DNA of 64,000 nucleotides, from assembly GCA_016841745.1 (NCBI GenBank), contig JAENYO010000005.1, positions 146,439-210,438 of the forward strand, written 5' to 3'. Numbering within the stretch: the stretch's first letter is position 1; each line of letters opens with the position of its first letter. Both the position numbers and the translations under genes were made by a program. Under the pieces are notes generated by a model, which saw only the letters and a program-made list of their open reading frames with translations, was not told the origin of the DNA and searched no databases. Shown one piece after another: positions 9,069 through 21,507 of this stretch. The stretch comes from Acetomicrobium hydrogeniformans (GTDB lineage Bacteria > Synergistota > Synergistia > Synergistales > JAFGMB01).

Positions 9069-9914
9069 TTATTTCTTTTCGAATTCTTTGACTGCCTTGC
9101 TTACCGTTGAATAATGGACCCCGAAATGATTTCCAACTTCCTTAAGGGTGAACTGACCTGAAAGATATGCCCTTGCCATGGCTTCTTTGCGGTTCGAATA
9201 TTCAACATCAAAGTATTCGAAGGTTTTCATGGGATTTTTTTTCTGTTCCCATGGAATTTCTGAAAGATCTTTTCCAAAATTGTAGTTTTCCTGGAGTTCA
9301 GCAATAAATTCCGCACTTCCCAGGAAGATCTGGTGCCTTATCTCCTTATCCAGGTCTATTTCTAATTGTAAACTCTCTTCAACAAAGTCCATGTAAAGGG
9401 TTCTGGCCCGCTTCTTTGCTCTGCCAAAACATGAAAGGATCAGGTAAGGGTTGAGCCATTTCTCTCGGGCATCAAGTCCGGCAGTGGACCGGTAACTGCT
9501 CCATCGATAATCTTCGGCCTTTTCTGCTATGCCTGCCAGGACGGGGGTAAGGGCCACATACCGCGCAAGTTCTTTGAGGTAGGGTTTCTTTTCTACAAGG
9601 ATGGATTTGAATCTTCCCTGGAACAGATGCCCTGCCCCGTCATGACGACGGTTGAAGGTCTGTGTGTAGACTCCGTTAAGCAGGCGCATGCCTTTTGAGA
9701 GATTTGCCTCGGGGGTTTCAATGATCAGATGGTAATGGTCTATCATCAGGCAATAGCCGTGACATATCCATCCCATTCTTGAAATGGTATTGCCCAGGAT
9801 ATCAAGAAATACTTCCCTGTCCTCCTCATTCATGTAAATATCCTGTTTTGCGTTTCCCCTTGAGGTTATCAGATACAGGGCGCCTTTGAATTCAATTCTT
9901 AGTGGTCTGCTCAT
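9069..9914 (-). mobile_element. REP-associated tyrosine transposase (RAYT, Y1_Tnp family) gene
   Basis: The product is about 281 aa from the ATG at 9912-9914, beginning MSRPLRIEFKGALYLIT. The frame extends 16 codons further up without a better start. It has the Y1/HUH transposase features of the RAYT group: N-terminal YLITSRGN, HUH-type motif DHYHLIIETP (His-x-His) near residue 79, and GHLFQGRFKSILVE; the catalytic tyrosine should lie in the ELARYVALTP region. The C-terminus has a helix-turn-helix (LKEVGNHFGVHYSTVSKAVKEF) that probably binds DNA. RAYTs are usually single-copy, domesticated-like genes linked to repetitive palindromic sequences. The gene is complete. A 14-bp sequence just upstream recurs at 24382. 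Confidence 0.9.
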
Positions 9915-11968: not shown

Positions 11969-13135
11969 TTATTCAAGGGAGGAGATGTACCATCCGTTCT
12001 TCAGCTCCGAAAGCTTCAGGAGGACAGAACGGAGTGTTCGTACCACCAGCAGTTTATGGGCGAAGATCACTCTTGTCCCGCCCTTCTCGCCCTCATCCTT
12101 GAACTTTGAGTCAAGGGGAAGTTTTCCGGGCAGGGACTTACCCTTCAACAGGGTTTCCAGGTCTTTTGCGCTCTTTATCTCCTCCCGGAAGGCTGGCGAA
12201 AGGAATTTCAGCATCTCCTCTGAGTCGCCCTTTTTCCAGGCTACCAGGAAAAGTTTCACTACCTGGTTTCGACTGAAACCGGGAAGAATGGGAGCATGTT
12301 CTTCCATACGGGGGGGATAGCTCACCTCCGGAAGAGTCACTTCCTTCTGTTCAGCAAAAAGGGATTTCTGTTTCTGGGCCAGTTCCGCCAGGGTCTCATC
12401 GAGTCTCTGCCGAAGAAGGTTCTTCTGGGATGAGAGGGCCTCTATCTGTTGAAGCAGGCTGGTTTTCTCCTTCTCCCACTTTTTCTGATTTTCCTCCAGT
12501 TCCTTTTTCCGGACCTCCTTAGCCTGGAGCTGCATCTCCTGAACTTCTGCAACGGAGACCGCCTCAGACCTTTTCTTAACCTTTTCTGCAACTTCCTTCC
12601 TCAGCCGGTTGTCATGGTCCTCGGTAAACTCGAAGGTCAGCTCCTTTCCCCGGTCGGGAAGGAGCACCAGTTCAAAGGGGCCGTCCACAGAGGGAAAGAA
12701 GACCAGTCCCTGTACCAGTCCCGTTATGGGACTGTCGAAAAGGCTGTCGTAGGAAGTGGGAGCCAGTCTTTCCCCATCGGAGGTCTGGAGAAAGAACCTT
12801 TCCGATAGAGGTTTCAGTTCCATGGCCCTCTGCGTGTAGCTGTGAAAGGAAAGGAGAACCGGGGTGGACTCATCCATCTTCAGGGAGCTGCGGAAATCCT
12901 CCGCTATCTTGCCAGTGGGGTCCCCAGCTCCACTCGTGTTGGCTCTAACCCAGGGATCCACCACATCCTCCGGGTAGTGCACCGCCCATACCAGGAAGTC
13001 CCTGCCCCAGCGGAAGGCTGTCCTGCCGTCCAGAACGGTCTCCACCGAGTTAATCGCACCACTTGAGGGGGCACTGAAAAGTAACAGGATAAGGGCTAAT
13101 GTAACAATAACGAAGTTAAGGTTTTTTCGGATCAT
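11969..13135 (-). CDS. Exported coiled-coil protein of unknown function
   Basis: I do not recognise the family. The product is about 388 aa from the ATG at 13133-13135, which has AGGGAGG seven bases upstream; the open frame extends 36 codons further without support. It has an N-terminal signal peptide (basic MIRKN, hydrophobic VTLALILLLF, then SAPSSGA), a globular region to about residue 180, a coiled coil rich in E/K/Q at about 180-290, and a C-terminal region of about 90 residues (SRNQVVKLFLVAWKKGD to the end). Periplasmic location is likely. It is the first gene of the minus-strand group with yaaR, flgG and cheW and diverges from fliW, so a motility role is suggested only by position. Confidence 0.75.
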   Translation of the reverse strand: MIRKNLNFVIVTLALILLLFSAPSSGAINSVETVLDGRTAFRWGRDFLVWAVHYPEDVVDPWVRANTSGAGDPTGKIAEDFRSSLKMDESTPVLLSFHSYTQRAMELKPLSERFFLQTSDGERLAPTSYDSLFDSPITGLVQGLVFFPSVDGPFELVLLPDRGKELTFEFTEDHDNRLRKEVAEKVKKRSEAVSVAEVQEMQLQAKEVRKKELEENQKKWEKEKTSLLQQIEALSSQKNLLRQRLDETLAELAQKQKSLFAEQKEVTLPEVSYPPRMEEHAPILPGFSRNQVVKLFLVAWKKGDSEEMLKFLSPAFREEIKSAKDLETLLKGKSLPGKLPLDSKFKDEGEKGGTRVIFAHKLLVVRTLRSVLLKLSELKNGWYISSLE

Positions 13136-13327
13136 GTCAAACCTCCCTATTTTTTGATTTATGTAAAGTTTTTTGCAGGCATATACAAACTCACAAAAAA
13201 TATTATAATAATAAACGTTTATATGTCTACTATAAAATAGCACTTAAGATCTAGTCGTAAATTCAGGAGAAACATGGGGCTCCGTGTTTTGGAAGAGTCC
13301 CTTTCAGGAAGGAGCTGATCTGTACCA

Positions 13328-13819
13328 ATGACGGTAAGAATAAACACTCCCCTTATGGGGGAAGTGGACGTGGAGCAGAGGGACCTCATTTTTTTCCCGA
13401 GAGGCTTGCCGGGCTTCGAAAAAATGCACCGCTGGGTACTGGCGGGAGAGGATGATGACTGTATAAAGTGGCTTATCTCCGCCGACCTGGGGCAGATAAC
13501 ACTGCCGGTGGCGGACCCGGCCCTGGTGGACTCGAATTACTCCCCCTCCATTCCTTTAGAGGTTCTGGAGGAACTGGAGATAGGGAGGATGGAGGATGCC
13601 CTTCTGGTGGTGATCCTTAATATTCCCCGACAGGAACCATGGAAGGGAACGGCTAACCTTTTGGCACCCCTGGTGATCAACCCCGCAAGCCGAAGGGGCA
13701 GACAGGTGGTTCTTTTCGACGAACGCTACAGCGTCTATTCTCCCCTGATTTCCGAAAAGGAAGTGGCTCGGATAGAAACCGAAGAGGCAGACACTACCGA
13801 AGAAAAGGGGAATAACTGA
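13328..13819 (+). CDS. fliW: Flagellar assembly factor FliW
   Basis: The product is 163 residues. The N-terminal MTVRINTPLMGEVDVEQRDL, the signature FPRGLPGFE and the C-terminal NLLAPLVINPASRRGRQVVL are FliW landmarks. FliW binds both newly made flagellin and the RNA-binding protein CsrA; when flagellin is low it releases less and CsrA represses flagellin translation. It overlaps csrA by one base (TGATG), so the two are translationally coupled, and the flagellin gene follows directly. A tail of about 15 acidic residues after the fold is the only unusual part. The ATG start has GAAGGAG-like sequence upstream. Confidence 0.95.
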   Translation: MTVRINTPLMGEVDVEQRDLIFFPRGLPGFEKMHRWVLAGEDDDCIKWLISADLGQITLPVADPALVDSNYSPSIPLEVLEELEIGRMEDALLVVILNIPRQEPWKGTANLLAPLVINPASRRGRQVVLFDERYSVYSPLISEKEVARIETEEADTTEEKGNN

Positions 13820-14097
13820 TGCTTGTCCTCACCAGGCGCAAAGGTGAAAGCATAGTTCTGGATGTGGGTAACGGCATAGAGATAACCGTCATTGAGGCGG
13901 GCAACGGCTCCGTGAGACTCGGCATAGATGCTCCCCGGTCGGTGGATGTGTGGCGCAAGGAAGTGCTCCTCCAGGTGCGGGACTCCAACAGGGCCGCAGC
14001 CCAGTTGCCCGAAGAGGGCCTGGAGGGCTTGCAGAACCTCCTGAAAAAGTGCAGTCGTACCCAGGAAGGCGAAGGCCAGGACAATGGAAGCCCTTGA
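13819..14097 (+). CDS. csrA: Carbon storage regulator CsrA (RNA-binding translational repressor)
   Basis: The first ~58 residues are canonical CsrA ([41 protein letters not shown]). The protein binds GGA motifs in RNA hairpin loops and usually blocks ribosome binding. The product is 92 aa; a C-terminal extension of about 30 residues (rich in E, Q, G) goes beyond the usual 60-75 aa length. This is common in FliW-containing bacteria. The ATG overlaps the fliW stop. The flagellin mRNA leader just downstream contains a GGA hairpin and a GGA in its ribosome site, so this gene probably controls its own neighbour. Confidence 0.96.
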
Positions 14098-14271
14098 GGC
14101 TGTTGAAGCTCTGGAGGGAGTTGCCCAATCTGGCTCCTTCAGGGATGAAACCTGGCAGCAGTATGACCCTCAGAATCCCTATAAATATTTTTTTGTTTCC
14201 ACAACTCAAGACTCTTATATTTCTCCACGAGGGGCAGAGTCCAGCCGGCGGATTTTGCCCGGAAGCGTTTC

Positions 14272-14310
14272 GGATTCCACGGAAGGAATTTCACACAACT
14301 TACAAGGAGG
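14272..14310 (+). promoter_or_regulatory. Candidate CsrA sites in the flagellin mRNA leader
   Basis: ATTCC (14274-14278) pairs with GGAAT (14285-14289) to make a 5-bp stem, extended by one G-U pair, around the six-base loop ACGGAA, which presents GGA at 14281-14283. A second GGA (14306-14308) lies inside the ribosome-binding sequence ACAAGGAGG just 10 nt before the flagellin ATG. Paired sites, one in a hairpin loop and one over the Shine-Dalgarno, are the known CsrA arrangement in the B. subtilis hag leader. FliW and CsrA are encoded immediately upstream. This is a prediction from sequence and context. Confidence 0.6.
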
Positions 14311-14320
14311 TTTCAGCAAT

Positions 14321-16738
14321 ATGCGTATTTACCACAATATCAACTCTATGGTAACCCAGAATAGCCTCAAAGCTAACGACAGCTCCCTTTCCAAGTCTCT
14401 TACAAGGCTTTCCACAGGACTTCGCATCAACAGCGCGGCCGACGATGCAGCAGGACTGGCCATCTCCGAGAAGATGAGAGCCCAGACCTCCGGACTCGAT
14501 CAGGCAGTGAGCAACTCCCAGGACGGCATTTCCCTCATCCAGACCGCAGAGGGCGCCCTTAACGAGACCCAGTCCATCCTCCAGAGGATGAGAGAACTCT
14601 CAGTCCAGGCATCCAACGACACCCTTACTTCCAATGACCGCCAGGCCATCCAGGGTGAGATCGACCAGCTCACCGAGGAGATCGACCGTATTTCCGACAC
14701 CACAACCTTCAACACAAAGAAGCTTCTTGACGGTTCAGCCTCGGCCATAACCTCCACAGATAACGCTGACACAAGTGTTTTCGCCAGAGGTTCCGTAACC
14801 AACGAAGGAAACTACAAGATATCCGTAGATCTTCTTCAGGCCGGTGCGGGTCAGGTACAGCAGAGTGATACTTTCGTTATTGCTCAGGGTGAGAACAATG
14901 TTACAGATCTAACCATTGATTCTACCAGTGGTGTTACTCAACTCAAAGCCAATGACCTTCAGGCAGGGGATTATGGTATAAAAATTGACGCTGATCACGC
15001 TGCAAGAGCTGCAGCGAGTTTTACAGAAGTAAGTGCCGATCAGGATGCAGCATCTACGGCAGCTAGTTTTGTTGGAGGGGAAACTCTCACTGTAGGATCG
15101 GCAGCAGGAACTGATACAGGAACTCTAAATGCTTCATTGGTGTTAGAAGTAGCAAGTTTCGATGAAGCCGCTGATACTGTAACTTATAATGTTTCTGGAG
15201 ATGCTTATAAGCTGGATGGAACACACTTTAATGTTGCAGAAGGTACCACCATTACTTTCAGCTTGAATGGTCTCGATGATGCTGCAGTTGCAACACTTGA
15301 TAAATCCAGCCTGGTTCAGGACGATGGAACAACTGCCTCCCTTGAGGACATTGTGTTCAGCAATGATGGTGCAGCAACTGCTGATAGTCTGGCCGCCACT
15401 GATTTTACTGCTGGCGACAAATTTGTAGTCAACATCGTGGCTGGAGACGGAGCTACTGCAACAGATGACGTTGTTATTCAGCATGGTTACGACGGAACAG
15501 CCCCAGTAGATGACCCTGGAGCGGATAACGGTTCTCAGCTTTTTGCGTTTGCTTCCGGAACCTGGGACAATACAAGTACTGATCTTCAGTTCTCCACAGT
15601 CGGAGCTGACGCTAGTGGAACTACTTTTACGACTTATGAAGGTCAAGTCAGCCTGACTATTGGTGGTGCGACCGACTCCACTGAAGCTGTTGCATTAAGC
15701 TTTGGCGATGCTGTAGGTGAAGTTGCAACCTCTGCTACTAAACTTAAAGATATTGATAAATTTACCAATGCTAATGGGATCAACCTTCTCGATGATCCCC
15801 AGACTCTTACTATTGTTCAGGGTGATGGAACAAAGGCCTCAGTAACTCTTTATGCTGACGATACTTTGGGGGATCTGGAAAACAAGCTTAACGATGCAGT
15901 CTCATCGTTGCTTGGGCAAGACGCATATATTGCTAGTTCTGCGGATGAAACCAACATCGTACAATTTATTGATTCTGGAGAGATTACAGCCGATACAAAC
16001 TTCTCTGCTCAGGGAAGTTTCGTGATCAGCAGTGCCGTTACCGGAGCATCTGGTGAATTGAACTTTGTCGGTAGCGAAGGCATAATCAATGCACTTGGTC
16101 TCACCGAGGTCCAGGCCAGCCAGGAAAACCGTTTCTCCGTGGATGTGACCAATGCTAACACCGGTGCTTCAATTGCAAGTGACGTGGAGCTTACGAGCAA
16201 TACTCTTGTGGGTGTGGTAGATGCCAATATCGATGTCCAGTTCGACAAGATGGCAGCTACTGATGTTGCGTGGAATGCAACATCCAAGAGCTGGGACATG
16301 ACTGCCAGCAGCAGTTCCACAGACATCAACATCCACATCGCTGCCAACTCCACCAACTTCCAGATCGGAGCAAACCAGGGTGAGACCATGAGCATCGACC
16401 TGGGCAACATGTCAGCTTCCTCCCTTGGCGTTGACAATATTCTTATAACCGATACAGCCAGCGCTTCCCGTTCTATCTCTGTTCTTGACAGCGCTATCAA
16501 CAAGGTGTCCAACCAGAGGGCTGGTCTTGGTGCTTACCAGAACCGCCTTGAGCACACCATCAACAACCTGAGTACGGCCAGTACCAACCTCACCGCCGCC
16601 GAAAGCCGTATTCGCGACGTTGACATGGCCGCCGAGATGACCGAGTTCACCAAGAACCAGATCCTTATGCAGGCCGCCAACTCCATGCTTGGCCAGGCCA
16701 ACCAGCTTCCACAGCAGGTCCTCTCCCTCCTCAGGTAG
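14321..16738 (+). CDS. fliC: Flagellin, extra-long form
   Basis: The true start is the ATG at 14321, 10 nt after AAGGAGG; the frame is open for 79 codons further upstream, which is not coding. The product is about 805 aa, far above the usual 270-500. The N-terminal D0/D1 ([60 protein letters not shown]) and C-terminal D1/D0 ([57 protein letters not shown]) are canonical and conserved. The middle ~550 residues (about 150-700) are acidic, rich in A/D/T/S/G with few aromatic or charged clusters, and probably form a large surface domain. No sigma-28 promoter was recognised upstream. Expression is probably controlled by CsrA and FliW. A strong terminator follows. Confidence 0.95.
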
Positions 16739-16774
16739 TATCCCCGAACCGTAACCGTCAACAACTACAACCAC

Positions 16775-16807
16775 AACGAGGCGAGCCCACGGGCCCGCCT
16801 CGTTTTC
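16775..16807 (+). terminator. Intrinsic terminator of the flagellin gene
   Basis: AACGAGGCG pairs with CGCCTCGTT, with an inner GCCC/GGGC stem, one bulged base on each side and a two-base tip. The right arm runs directly into TTTT. It begins about 37 bp after the flagellin stop. It is a textbook intrinsic terminator and closes the fliW-csrA-flagellin unit. Confidence 0.9.
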
Positions 16808-17041
16808 CCCACCCCCCAACTTTCATACAACGAGGTTAAGCCCAACCTCCAATTCATCCAACATTTTTAAAGATTACTCTAAGTCTTTAAGGGAGAAATA
16901 TTAGTTCTTTTAAAGGGTTTTCAAAATCAAACAGTTTAAAGAGCCAAAAGGCTTGAAATTAATAGCTGTTGCTTTAGCAGAATGAAAGAAACCTGTTGAC
17001 AGTATATAGAGGATATGTTTAAGTTATAACACTAGATATGG

Positions 17042-17050
17042 TGATATGAT
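17042..17050 (+). promoter_or_regulatory. Candidate extended -10 for the riboswitch transcript
   Basis: TGATATGAT has a TG upstream of TATGAT (one mismatch from TATAAT), which makes an extended -10 and would place the transcription start near 17057, some 20 nt before the riboswitch. An alternative pair, TTGACA at 16996-17001 with TAAGTT at 17020-17025, is also plausible. Neither is conclusive. The rest of 16808-17040 holds no gene that I can support. Confidence 0.4.
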
Positions 17051-17077
17051 TTGCACCTTAGACAAAGTGAGAAAGTT

Positions 17078-17165
17078 GAAAAATGGCAAAACCGCCGAAA
17101 GACGGTGACGCAAAGCTGCGGGTCTAAAGCCTAAGGGTCATGATAGCCGGGTTGCCGAATATTAT
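17078..17165 (+). promoter_or_regulatory. Cyclic di-GMP-I riboswitch (GEMM class I)
   Basis: The sequence has the class I architecture: a P2 stem ACCGCCGAAAGACGGU with a GAAA tetraloop, then the junction GACGCAAAGCUGCGGGUC, CUAAAGCCUAAGG, and the conserved AUGAUAGCCGGGUUGCCG. The conserved ligand-binding and tetraloop-receptor bases of known c-di-GMP-I aptamers are present. It lies about 170 bp before an uncharacterised gene (17333) and is followed by a terminator hairpin and T7 run at 17183-17219, so ligand binding probably controls whether transcription continues. Whether c-di-GMP turns the gene on or off cannot be read safely from sequence alone. Confidence 0.93.
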
Positions 17166-17182
17166 GAAGAATTATGTTCGGT

Positions 17183-17219
17183 ACACCTTGGGGTTAATAT
17201 TTCTCGAAGGTGTTTTTTT
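17183..17219 (+). terminator. Riboswitch expression-platform terminator
   Basis: ACACCTT pairs with AAGGTGT, with a 17-nt loop, and the right arm runs into seven Ts. Base pairing of the left arm with the aptamer's end (TTCGGTACACC) could provide an alternative structure. It sits between the aptamer and the gene at 17333, as expected for a transcriptional switch. Confidence 0.75.
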
Positions 17220-17332
17220 ATTCATCCGGGAGCAAGAGAGAGAATTAAGTTGTTTTAAATAACGTTATTTATGTTACAATAAACTTCAAATGAATAATGA
17301 ACGATTTTTCAAACTCTAAGGAGGGTGAAATT

Positions 17333-17839
17333 ATGTCCATGTACTTTTATCCCGTCGGGCGATCTGTAAAGATCCCTCTTCTTGATCCAGACAACGATAT
17401 CTACATGGAAAGGGTTAGGCTTCTCGCTTTCTTTGTTTCTGAAGCAGTGGAAAAGTGGGAGCTCTTTTATGATCCATCTTTAACAAGTTCAAACCTGCCA
17501 AAACATCTTGCCTATGTCCTTCGCAAGCTTGCTGAAATGCTTCCCTCTGACGATATCGAAAGGATTCCCGAGCAGAATTTCTACAAAAAAGCATCTATCC
17601 TTCTGGATAATTCCAATGAGAATTGGGCAGAACAGGAAAAGGCGGAACAGGCTTTGAATATACTTTGCGCAGGTTTTTCAGGGATCCAGAACCGTCTGGA
17701 TCATGGACTTAAACCCTTTGAAAGCCGGATCCTTCCCATGGTAGAAATCCCGCAGACAGCAAAAAAAGGTTTCGATTCCGGAAAAATGATATCCTTTCTG
17801 GAACTGAAGGACGAACCCTCATTGCTTCTGGCCAATTGA
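17333..17839 (+). CDS. Uncharacterised protein controlled by the c-di-GMP riboswitch
   Basis: I do not recognise this family. The product is about 168 aa from the ATG at 17333-17335, which sits 8 nt after AAGGAGG; an upstream in-frame ATG lacks support. It has no signal peptide, membrane segment, cysteine cluster or known motif. It is mostly helical and acidic, with an opening MSMYFYPVGRSVKIPLLDPD and a central MERVRLLAFFVSEAVEKWEL. The perfect palindrome AAATAACGTTATTT lies at 17257-17270 in the leader after the terminator. The gene stands alone: the next gene is convergent. As the direct target of a c-di-GMP switch beside flagellin, it may adjust motility or attachment, but nothing in its sequence shows this. 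Confidence 0.8.
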   Translation: MSMYFYPVGRSVKIPLLDPDNDIYMERVRLLAFFVSEAVEKWELFYDPSLTSSNLPKHLAYVLRKLAEMLPSDDIERIPEQNFYKKASILLDNSNENWAEQEKAEQALNILCAGFSGIQNRLDHGLKPFESRILPMVEIPQTAKKGFDSGKMISFLELKDEPSLLLAN

Positions 17840-17867
17840 CGGGATAAAAGGAGAAAATATTTCTGTA

Positions 17868-17885
17868 AGGATATTTATTTATCCT
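17868..17885. terminator. Weak hairpin between convergent genes
   Basis: AGGATA pairs with TATCCT around the loop TTTATT, midway between the end of the riboswitch-controlled gene and the end of the convergent regulator gene. The stem is short and A/T-rich, so termination in both directions is possible but weakly supported. Confidence 0.35.
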
Positions 17886-17894
17886 CTAACGGCA

Positions 17895-18473
17895 TTACAC
17901 CCCGGAGCGCTTCTTTTTAGAGGCCCTGGCGGTTTTCTTTTCTCCTTCAATGGTGTTACCGGTTTCCCTGGCAAGGTCTTCGAGGAGGGACTTGTCCTCG
18001 CCTCCTGCTCCTCCGAGGAGATTTTCAAGTTCTCCACCGATCTCGTTCATAGGTGAAGGCAGGCCCCTCCGTTCCAGATCCTTATCAAAAAGGAGGGCGA
18101 AGAGAACGCTTACAAGGCTGCCCGAATTTATGACTCCCAGGAAGTCCGTCTCCATTTCCTTGAGGTAGGGAAGGTAATGAGGCAGTAGTTCATGGTCGGA
18201 TGCAAGCTTAAGATATTTGATAAGCTTCTGGGTTGAGAGGAATTTCGGATGGCGCATGGATTGCTTGAGAAGGGTTGTAAGATATTTATAATTAGGAAAA
18301 CTTGAACTCCTGGTACCGTCAAGGCCTGATTTTTCCCAGTTAGCCACGGTCACATTGCCCACTTCCATGAGTTCTGCGAACTGGAGCTGGGTAAGACCAA
18401 GGCTCAGCCTGAGTTTCCGTATATATTCTCCTGAAACAACGGGAGCAAACTTCTCTTTACCACTGTTACTCAT
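17895..18473 (-). CDS. XRE-type helix-turn-helix regulator
   Basis: The product is 192 residues. The N-terminal ~55 residues form a Cro/C1-like helix-turn-helix (EYIRKLRLSLGLTQLQFAEL, then MEVGNVTVANWEKSG), which is expected to bind DNA. The rest is unlike known effector domains: a helical middle (residues 60-150) and a lysine-rich tail with KKKR at the end. Similar tails can add nonspecific DNA affinity. Target genes are unknown. Candidates are its own promoter region, the riboswitch-linked gene or the flagellar units around it. It is convergent with the riboswitch gene; the 207-bp A/T-rich space upstream (18474-18680) must hold its promoter. Confidence 0.8.
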   Translation of the reverse strand: MSNSGKEKFAPVVSGEYIRKLRLSLGLTQLQFAELMEVGNVTVANWEKSGLDGTRSSSFPNYKYLTTLLKQSMRHPKFLSTQKLIKYLKLASDHELLPHYLPYLKEMETDFLGVINSGSLVSVLFALLFDKDLERRGLPSPMNEIGGELENLLGGAGGEDKSLLEDLARETGNTIEGEKKTARASKKKRSGV

Positions 18474-20487: not shown

Positions 20488-21507
20488 TCAGAAAATCTCC
20501 CAGGAATTGCAGAATTCCCTCAACTCAGGATTCTTTCTGAGTTTTTCCATGCTTCTGTTCACAATGCTACGGATATGTTCGGAGCTCTTTCCGTAGACCT
20601 CGGCGATGTCAGCCAGGGTCTGGCATCCATATCTCCCCAGGCCAAAACGCCTGCAAAGTACGTCGTATTCCTTTTCGTTGAGTTTGCTGCTCAAAAGTTC
20701 CAGAGCCTCCTGGCGGAACAGGTGTTCTTCATCCAGGGAGGTGGAAAAAGTTTCGCCGAAAGAATTCCCGTCCATATTGCTGCCTACTTTGTCCGAACTC
20801 AGAGAGAACAGGCCCTTTCCCGATTCTTCCGGGTAATCAATGGGAATAGTAGCAGCCGATATCCTTGCCAGGGCCTGGAGCCTGTCCAGGTCAACCTCAT
20901 GGGGAATGGATTCCAGTTTTCCCTCCTTGAAGGCATGGATATGTTCCGACATGGTGTGGACGGAAGTTCCGGCATATCCAGGAACGCTGAATCCGTGACG
21001 GTGCTGGACCAGGGCCATCCTTATGCGCTGGTATATCCAGGGGATGCCGTAGGTGCTGAACCTGGTGTTCCTTTTGTAATCAAATCTTCTTACAGCTGTC
21101 ATAAGCCCCAGAATGCCTTCCTGCACCAGATCCATGAAAGATAGTATGCTCTGGTGGCCCATGCGGTCCCTTATTTTTTTTGCGCAGGCTATGACCAGTC
21201 TGAGGTTGGCCAGGACGAACCTCTGGAAAGCTTCGCTATCGCCTTCCTCCTGGATGCGCCGTGAAAGTTCTTTCTCTTCCCTGGGGGTCAGGAGGGGGAT
21301 GCTTCCTATCTCGGCGTGAAAAAGCTCGTAGGCTGTTTTAAGGGTTTTCCAGTCTTCTTCCAGGTCTACGGTGATCTCTATGATATCCCCTTCATCGTTT
21401 CCAGGCTGAAGTTCCAGAGATGCATCTGTCCATGAGGAATCTGCCTTAAGGGGTTCCCTTCCCTTTCGAGGCAGTAATGATATGCTCCCTTGTTTCTTCC
21501 TTGACAT
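20488..21507 (-). CDS. Sigma-70 family RNA polymerase sigma factor, divergent (group 2-like)
   Basis: The product is 339 aa. After a ~60-residue acidic N-terminus there is region 1.2 (YELFHAEIGSIPLLTPREEK), region 2 with the core-binding FVLANLRLVIACAKKIRD and MDLVQEGILGLMTAVRRFDY, the promoter-melting segment RNTRFSTYGIPWIYQRIR, and region 4 (LNEKEYDVLCRRFGLGRYGC, then TLADIAEVYGKSSEHIRSIV). The segments that contact the -10 (region 2.4), the linker (3.0-3.2) and the -35 (4.2: SSEHIRSIVNRSMEKLR rather than TRERIRQIEAKAL) all differ from housekeeping sigma. It is therefore probably an alternative factor with its own promoter specificity. It heads a unit with cheW. A GCCGATAA element upstream suggests flagellar-type control. 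It is too large, and too like the primary sigma in architecture, to be FliA. Confidence 0.88.
   Translation of the reverse strand: MSRKKQGSISLLPRKGREPLKADSSWTDASLELQPGNDEGDIIEITVDLEEDWKTLKTAYELFHAEIGSIPLLTPREEKELSRRIQEEGDSEAFQRFVLANLRLVIACAKKIRDRMGHQSILSFMDLVQEGILGLMTAVRRFDYKRNTRFSTYGIPWIYQRIRMALVQHRHGFSVPGYAGTSVHTMSEHIHAFKEGKLESIPHEVDLDRLQALARISAATIPIDYPEESGKGLFSLSSDKVGSNMDGNSFGETFSTSLDEEHLFRQEALELLSSKLNEKEYDVLCRRFGLGRYGCQTLADIAEVYGKSSEHIRSIVNRSMEKLRKNPELREFCNSWEIF

Follow-up and report, generated by a model that had tools for sequence, protein, structure and literature searches.

Candidate two-site CsrA control of flagellin in a member of the Synergistota, with a hairpin that covaries across the phylum

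Does the flagellin gene of Acetomicrobium hydrogeniformans, which lies directly behind fliW and csrA, carry in its leader the double CsrA site known from Bacillus subtilis hag and Campylobacter jejuni flaA? To address this question we analysed a 64,000-nt stretch of contig JAENYO010000005.1 (the window; all coordinates refer to it) together with flagellin leaders from the same phylum. The locus very probably encodes a FliW-CsrA-flagellin homeostasis circuit of the kind described in these two species, a reading that draws on sequence comparison.

The three genes follow one another on the forward strand, as an earlier note on this DNA had described, and Pfam confirms their families. The features of the locus are as follows:

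13328-13819, + strand: fliW, encoding the CsrA antagonist (163 aa); Pfam FliW, E 1.3e-33; phmmer to 5dmb_A FliW, E 2.2e-14.
13819-14097, + strand: csrA (92 aa); Pfam CsrA, E 6.3e-21; 5dmb_D, E 7.8e-11; equivalents of R44, V51 and N55.
14193-14221, + strand: possible flagellin promoter, TTGTTT-N17-TATATT; like hexamers in leaders L106, L112 and L116.
14273-14290, + strand: hairpin, candidate CsrA site 1, with loop ACGGAA at 14279-14284; fold, covariation and a held-out model match at 14266-14313.
14302-14311, + strand: candidate CsrA site 2, ACAAGGAGGU over the Shine-Dalgarno sequence; sequence and ACANGGA conservation.
14321-16738, + strand: flagellin (805 aa), ATG at 14321; Pfam Flagellin_N, E 3.6e-49, and Flagellin_C, E 1.3e-31.

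The fliW stop and the csrA start share one base. The genome from which the window comes (3.04 Mb in 15 contigs) has a single fliW, a single csrA and two Flagellin_N genes, the second copy being FlgL-like. Hexamers resembling TTGTTT and TATATT, at equal spacing, were recognized by eye 5′ of flagellin in the nearest relatives of the window (L106, L112 and L116), and weakly suggest that flagellin has a promoter of its own at 14193-14221. A frame in phase with flagellin is open on the forward strand from an ATG at 14084, inside csrA, to 14320, and the corresponding upstream frame is open for 65-104 codons in the same three relatives. We rejected this frame as an N-terminal extension of flagellin or a leader peptide by a codon-position test: over 85 codons of the upstream frame, L106 and L112 differ 27, 23 and 27 times at codon positions 1, 2 and 3, which gives no sign of coding constraint.

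Elsewhere in the window, a c-di-GMP-I riboswitch (Rfam RF01051, 79.4 bits, E 5.4e-15) lies at 17075-17159 on the forward strand, a short way 3′ of flagellin, and precedes an ORF at 17297-17839 (180 aa) that has no Pfam or NCBIfam match. A gene resembling REP-associated tyrosine transposases occupies 9069-9902 on the reverse strand, with an NCBIfam NF047646 score (65.3 bits) below the cut-off of 80.

Within the flagellin leader, the two GGA trinucleotides begin at 14281 and 14306, a distance of 25 nt. The predicted fold of RNA 14272-14310 closes the ACGGAA loop by a 6-bp stem (14273-14278 paired with 14285-14290) and leaves site 2, in the Shine-Dalgarno region ACUUACAAGGAGGU, outside the small hairpin; the loop and the overlapping GGA that the earlier note had pointed out are thereby confirmed. 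Taken alone, the hairpin is statistically unremarkable: of 200 shuffled versions of the 39-nt piece, 21 reach an equal or better fold (z −1.35). In a longer context, with the leader taken from −95, the predicted fold has the loop GGA paired to a UUUCG further upstream in place of the hairpin. Since the hairpin in the single sequence is not significant and a competing fold exists, the case rests on the comparison of leaders. A search of 12000-18000 of the window against Rfam, with E up to 5, returned no family matching the flagellin leader. A second, longer hairpin, GGGCAGAGUCC-AGCCGGC-GGAUUUUGCCC, lies at 14232-14260 on the forward strand, closer to where the leader probably begins; at the equivalent place, L106 and L112 likewise form a hairpin containing GCCGGC.

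For this comparison, 147 distinct flagellin leaders, about one to two per genome, were chosen from the many flagellin genes in the phylum, and eight FlgL-like leaders among them were set apart as controls, leaving 139 for motif counts. A strict hairpin, with an ANGGAN hexaloop closed by at least 3 bp, is present in 67 of the 139 leaders, compared with a mean of 2.8 after dinucleotide shuffling and with none of the eight controls; it is missing from the other 72. The stretch from −150 to −76 of the same 139 leaders contains 32 strict hairpins, which are partly second hairpins further up. A relaxed scan (−3.5 kcal/mol or better) finds the hairpin in 90 of 154 leaders, a set that includes two from a record labelled Leptospirillum, against 13.2 in shuffled sequences and 0 of 9 controls. 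At the Shine-Dalgarno position, ACANGGA occurs in 73 of the 139 leaders and in 0 of the 8 FlgL-type controls. The two GGA are 20-25 nt apart in 29 of the 56 leaders measured (range 20-59 in all). CsrA bridges sites 10-63 nt apart, with an optimum above 18 (PMC7652899), and the 25 nt of the window fall inside this range, a spacing compatible with bridging by one CsrA dimer. Several flagellin-family genes in the collection (L232, L241, L251, L253 and L277) have very long frames of about 1600-1980 codons.

To examine the stem in a manner blind to pairing, each leader was anchored at its 3′-most ANGGA in the interval −62 to −24, which retained 91 of the 139 leaders, or 84 after clustering at 80%. 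Stem positions 1 to 5 are paired in 77, 75, 71, 60 and 74% of the clustered leaders, versus 60, 49, 42, 38 and 43% after partners have been reassigned at random, and registers slid by 1-3 positions pair less, except for a tie (77%) at position 1 with a slide of −3. In 24 leaders with a clear stem, both partners have changed in 6 of 7 pairs, and covariation scores 0.923 compared with 0.209 (0 of 500 shuffles), with slid controls at 0.339 or below. Of all cells in these rows 92.5% are paired, a percentage inflated by the choice of rows for a clear stem; the joint change of stem letters is unaffected by that choice. The nearest relatives illustrate the pattern: in the window the stem AUUCC/GGAAU encloses the loop ACGGAA, in L106 UUUUCC/GGAAAA encloses AAGGAU, in L112 AAUUCC with GGAAAUU encloses AUGGAU, and in L116 AUCC/GGAU encloses AUGGAA. 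The alignment among relatives that the earlier note had proposed as a check thus finds hairpin and GGA conserved: the stem shows strong covariation among the phylum's flagellin leaders, and the ANGGAN loop and the Shine-Dalgarno site are fixed.

A covariance model (R2) built on 19 training leaders, none of them from the window's family or two related families (f1, f2 and f10), recovers the element independently. Its sole match at E ≤ 0.01 in the 3.04-Mb genome of the window is the flagellin leader (25.3 bits, E 6.1e-4), and matches at this threshold occur in 78 of 185 genomes. At E ≤ 1e-4, 41 of 43 matches lie directly 5′ of a flagellin gene, as matched by eye, 19 of the 43 being training rows; the remaining two are a site without a clear gene (L325, in G160:C109) and one with a secreted substrate-binding-like protein (G134). 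Flagellin and other sites are mixed among the matches with E between 1e-4 and 0.01. R2 is a covariance model able to find such leaders from sequence alone.

Two further sites deserve mention. The second-best match of model R1 in the window's genome, at 21538-21493 on the reverse strand (19.9 bits, E 0.048), falls at the start of a sigma-70-family gene (ORF 20488-21507). We do not claim it as a double-site message, as its hairpin sits on the Shine-Dalgarno region and its second GGA is inside the coding region; the site is absent from the R2 matches at E ≤ 0.01 in this genome, and the R1 match may be due to chance. In family f5, L341 and L342 (from two related genomes, G024 and G021) both read GGCGC-AGGAA-GCGCC and then CCACAAGGAGG, a double-site-like arrangement before a gene of 395-397 aa, whose product we take to resemble a flavodiiron-type protein.

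The proteins encoded upstream of the leader fit the same reading. Among the 185 genomes, csrA is found in 116 and fliW in 115, with both in 114 (lists compared by eye), and the csrA start lies on the same strand as fliW, at a median distance of −1 nt from where the fliW frame ends (116 loci). Coupling of this type is expected where FliW and CsrA need balancing (PMC6529632), and in the window the FliW-family protein is likewise encoded with CsrA in a coupled arrangement. The best alignment of the window's CsrA is to the CsrA of crystal structure 5dmb, a FliW-CsrA complex (PMC7829508). The 92-aa protein has a long C-terminal extension and equivalents of V51, N55 and R44; in the 118 CsrA rows from the phylum, which count the window twice and include two that are truncated at the start, R44 and N55 are present in 118 each and I/V51 in 116. 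V51 and N55 bind FliW in C. jejuni, as does N55 in B. subtilis (PMC7829508). The presence of csrA in a genome does not separate leaders by hairpin status (hairpin in 62 of 92 genomes with csrA versus 8 of 13 without), an association blurred because the assemblies are incomplete. Two genomes that have neither csrA nor fliW, G095 (98% complete) and G103 (90%), together provide 5 leaders, of which none has the hairpin or ACANGGA; as natural knock-out evidence for the link to csrA this is only suggestive.

The closest known systems include those of B. subtilis and C. jejuni. In B. subtilis, FliW and CsrA are encoded together and the hag leader has two CsrA sites, one of them on the Shine-Dalgarno sequence (PMC7652899, PMC6529632). 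The B. subtilis CsrA shares the C-terminal extension and N55. By contrast, the organism belongs to a different phylum, the window's flagellin directly follows csrA, an order seen by eye at 12 of the csrA loci examined in the phylum, and the leader letters, compared without alignment, are unrelated to hag outside the motifs. C. jejuni flaA shares the Gram-negative setting, FliW as antagonist, ANGGA loops of which the second covers the ribosome-binding site, and a leader structure with compensatory changes (PMC4894983). There, both sites lie in stem-loops of a 45-nt leader (PMC4894983), whereas site 2 of the window is predicted outside a hairpin; the adjoining fliW, csrA and flagellin genes of the window are a further difference. 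The earlier note had set weight on a diderm host. An outer membrane is indicated in this organism only marginally (LptD_N 20.6 bits, cut-off 20.4), and the claim to novelty falls away because the flaA leader of Gram-negative C. jejuni has two GGA stem-loops and FliW as antagonist (PMC4894983). A similar layout beyond the phylum is that of the Leptospirillum-labelled record (L259), in which csrA, fliW and flagellin are consecutive and the flagellin leader combines a GGUCC-AUGGAUA-GGACC hairpin with CCCAAGGAGGG at a GGA-GGA distance of 25 nt; unlike the window, it has csrA before fliW, a 7-nt loop and an R2 score of only 10.8 bits.

By analogy with B. subtilis and C. jejuni, one pocket of a CsrA dimer would hold the ACGGAA hairpin loop and the other the Shine-Dalgarno GGA 25 nt away, and CsrA on both sites would keep ribosomes off the flagellin message. 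Cytoplasmic flagellin would sequester FliW; once flagellin is exported, free FliW would bind the long C-terminus of CsrA, CsrA would be released, and flagellin would be made. Leader conservation, covariation, fliW-csrA coupling and the CsrA extension with its contact residues all argue for this two-site scheme, which the earlier note had put forward.

Lineages within the phylum have altered the element in different ways. In genus g18, flagellin paralogues beginning MRIYHNIPAL have the hairpin without the loop GGA and GCAGGAGGC at the Shine-Dalgarno position, and copies beginning MVIQHNIP retain both sites; some leaders therefore lack the strict motif by real loss. The leaders concerned are:

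L156, L181, L185, L186, L202-L204, L208, L210, L212 and L214: g18 leaders without loop GGA, Shine-Dalgarno region GCAGGAGGC.

Having lost the ACA preceding the Shine-Dalgarno sequence as well as the loop GGA, this class would escape CsrA. In family f11 (L004, L005, L007 and L008), each leader has three GGA sites between −88 and the start codon, and a possible helix of 8-10 bp, joining the Shine-Dalgarno region to the 5′ arm of the hairpin at site 1, excludes this hairpin in the predicted fold; in L004 the helix pairs AAGUCCUCAC with GUGAGGACUU, the latter comprising the Shine-Dalgarno sequence and the nucleotides ahead of the start codon. For L004, L005 and L007 the fold with the long-range helix is predicted to be more stable by about 1-4 kcal/mol, for L008 it is not, and variation among f11 leaders is too small to prove the helix. 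One may speculate that lineages have rewired the double site, as an RNA element present throughout the phylum, and that it acts as a module deciding which flagellin copies obey the export checkpoint, with f11 CsrA choosing between two folds and the g18 class freed from CsrA, but we consider this extended scheme unlikely.

Some of these variants bear on how the element is to be read. The leader might serve mainly as a sponge on an abundant flagellin mRNA that draws CsrA off other transcripts, with its own repression being secondary; C. jejuni flaA mRNA, together with FliW, does titrate CsrA (PMC4894983), and some leaders in the phylum have three GGA sites. However, one site sits on the Shine-Dalgarno sequence itself, as direct repression requires, and the window's genome has one csrA only and few other double-site messages, so that we regard a role chiefly as a sponge as improbable. 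The g18 paralogues that retain a hairpin without the loop GGA would suit a structure kept for message stability or ribosome standby and unrelated to CsrA. Against such a function, it is the GGA loop in its ANGGAN form that is conserved and not the stem letters, and the Shine-Dalgarno sequence bears an ACA extension that it does not need for its own purpose and that FlgL-type controls lack; this explanation appears very improbable.

A Shine-Dalgarno sequence always contains GGA and short hairpins are common, and the single-sequence z-score of just −1.35 is in keeping with a coincidence of the two. Conservation, covariation and the held-out model match speak against coincidence, to which we give hardly any credence. 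FliW-CsrA control of flagellin translation thus stands as the preferred reading.

In titles and abstract openings of the open literature, we found no report of CsrA control of flagellin in Synergistetes or Synergistota. The phylum-wide covariation, the lineage variants and the like layout in the Leptospirillum record are what the analysis adds. The known mechanism is unchanged; evidence from covariation extends FliW-CsrA-flagellin control to one more phylum, and the natural variants, namely three-site leaders and paralogues that lack sites, can be used for testing the contribution of each site.
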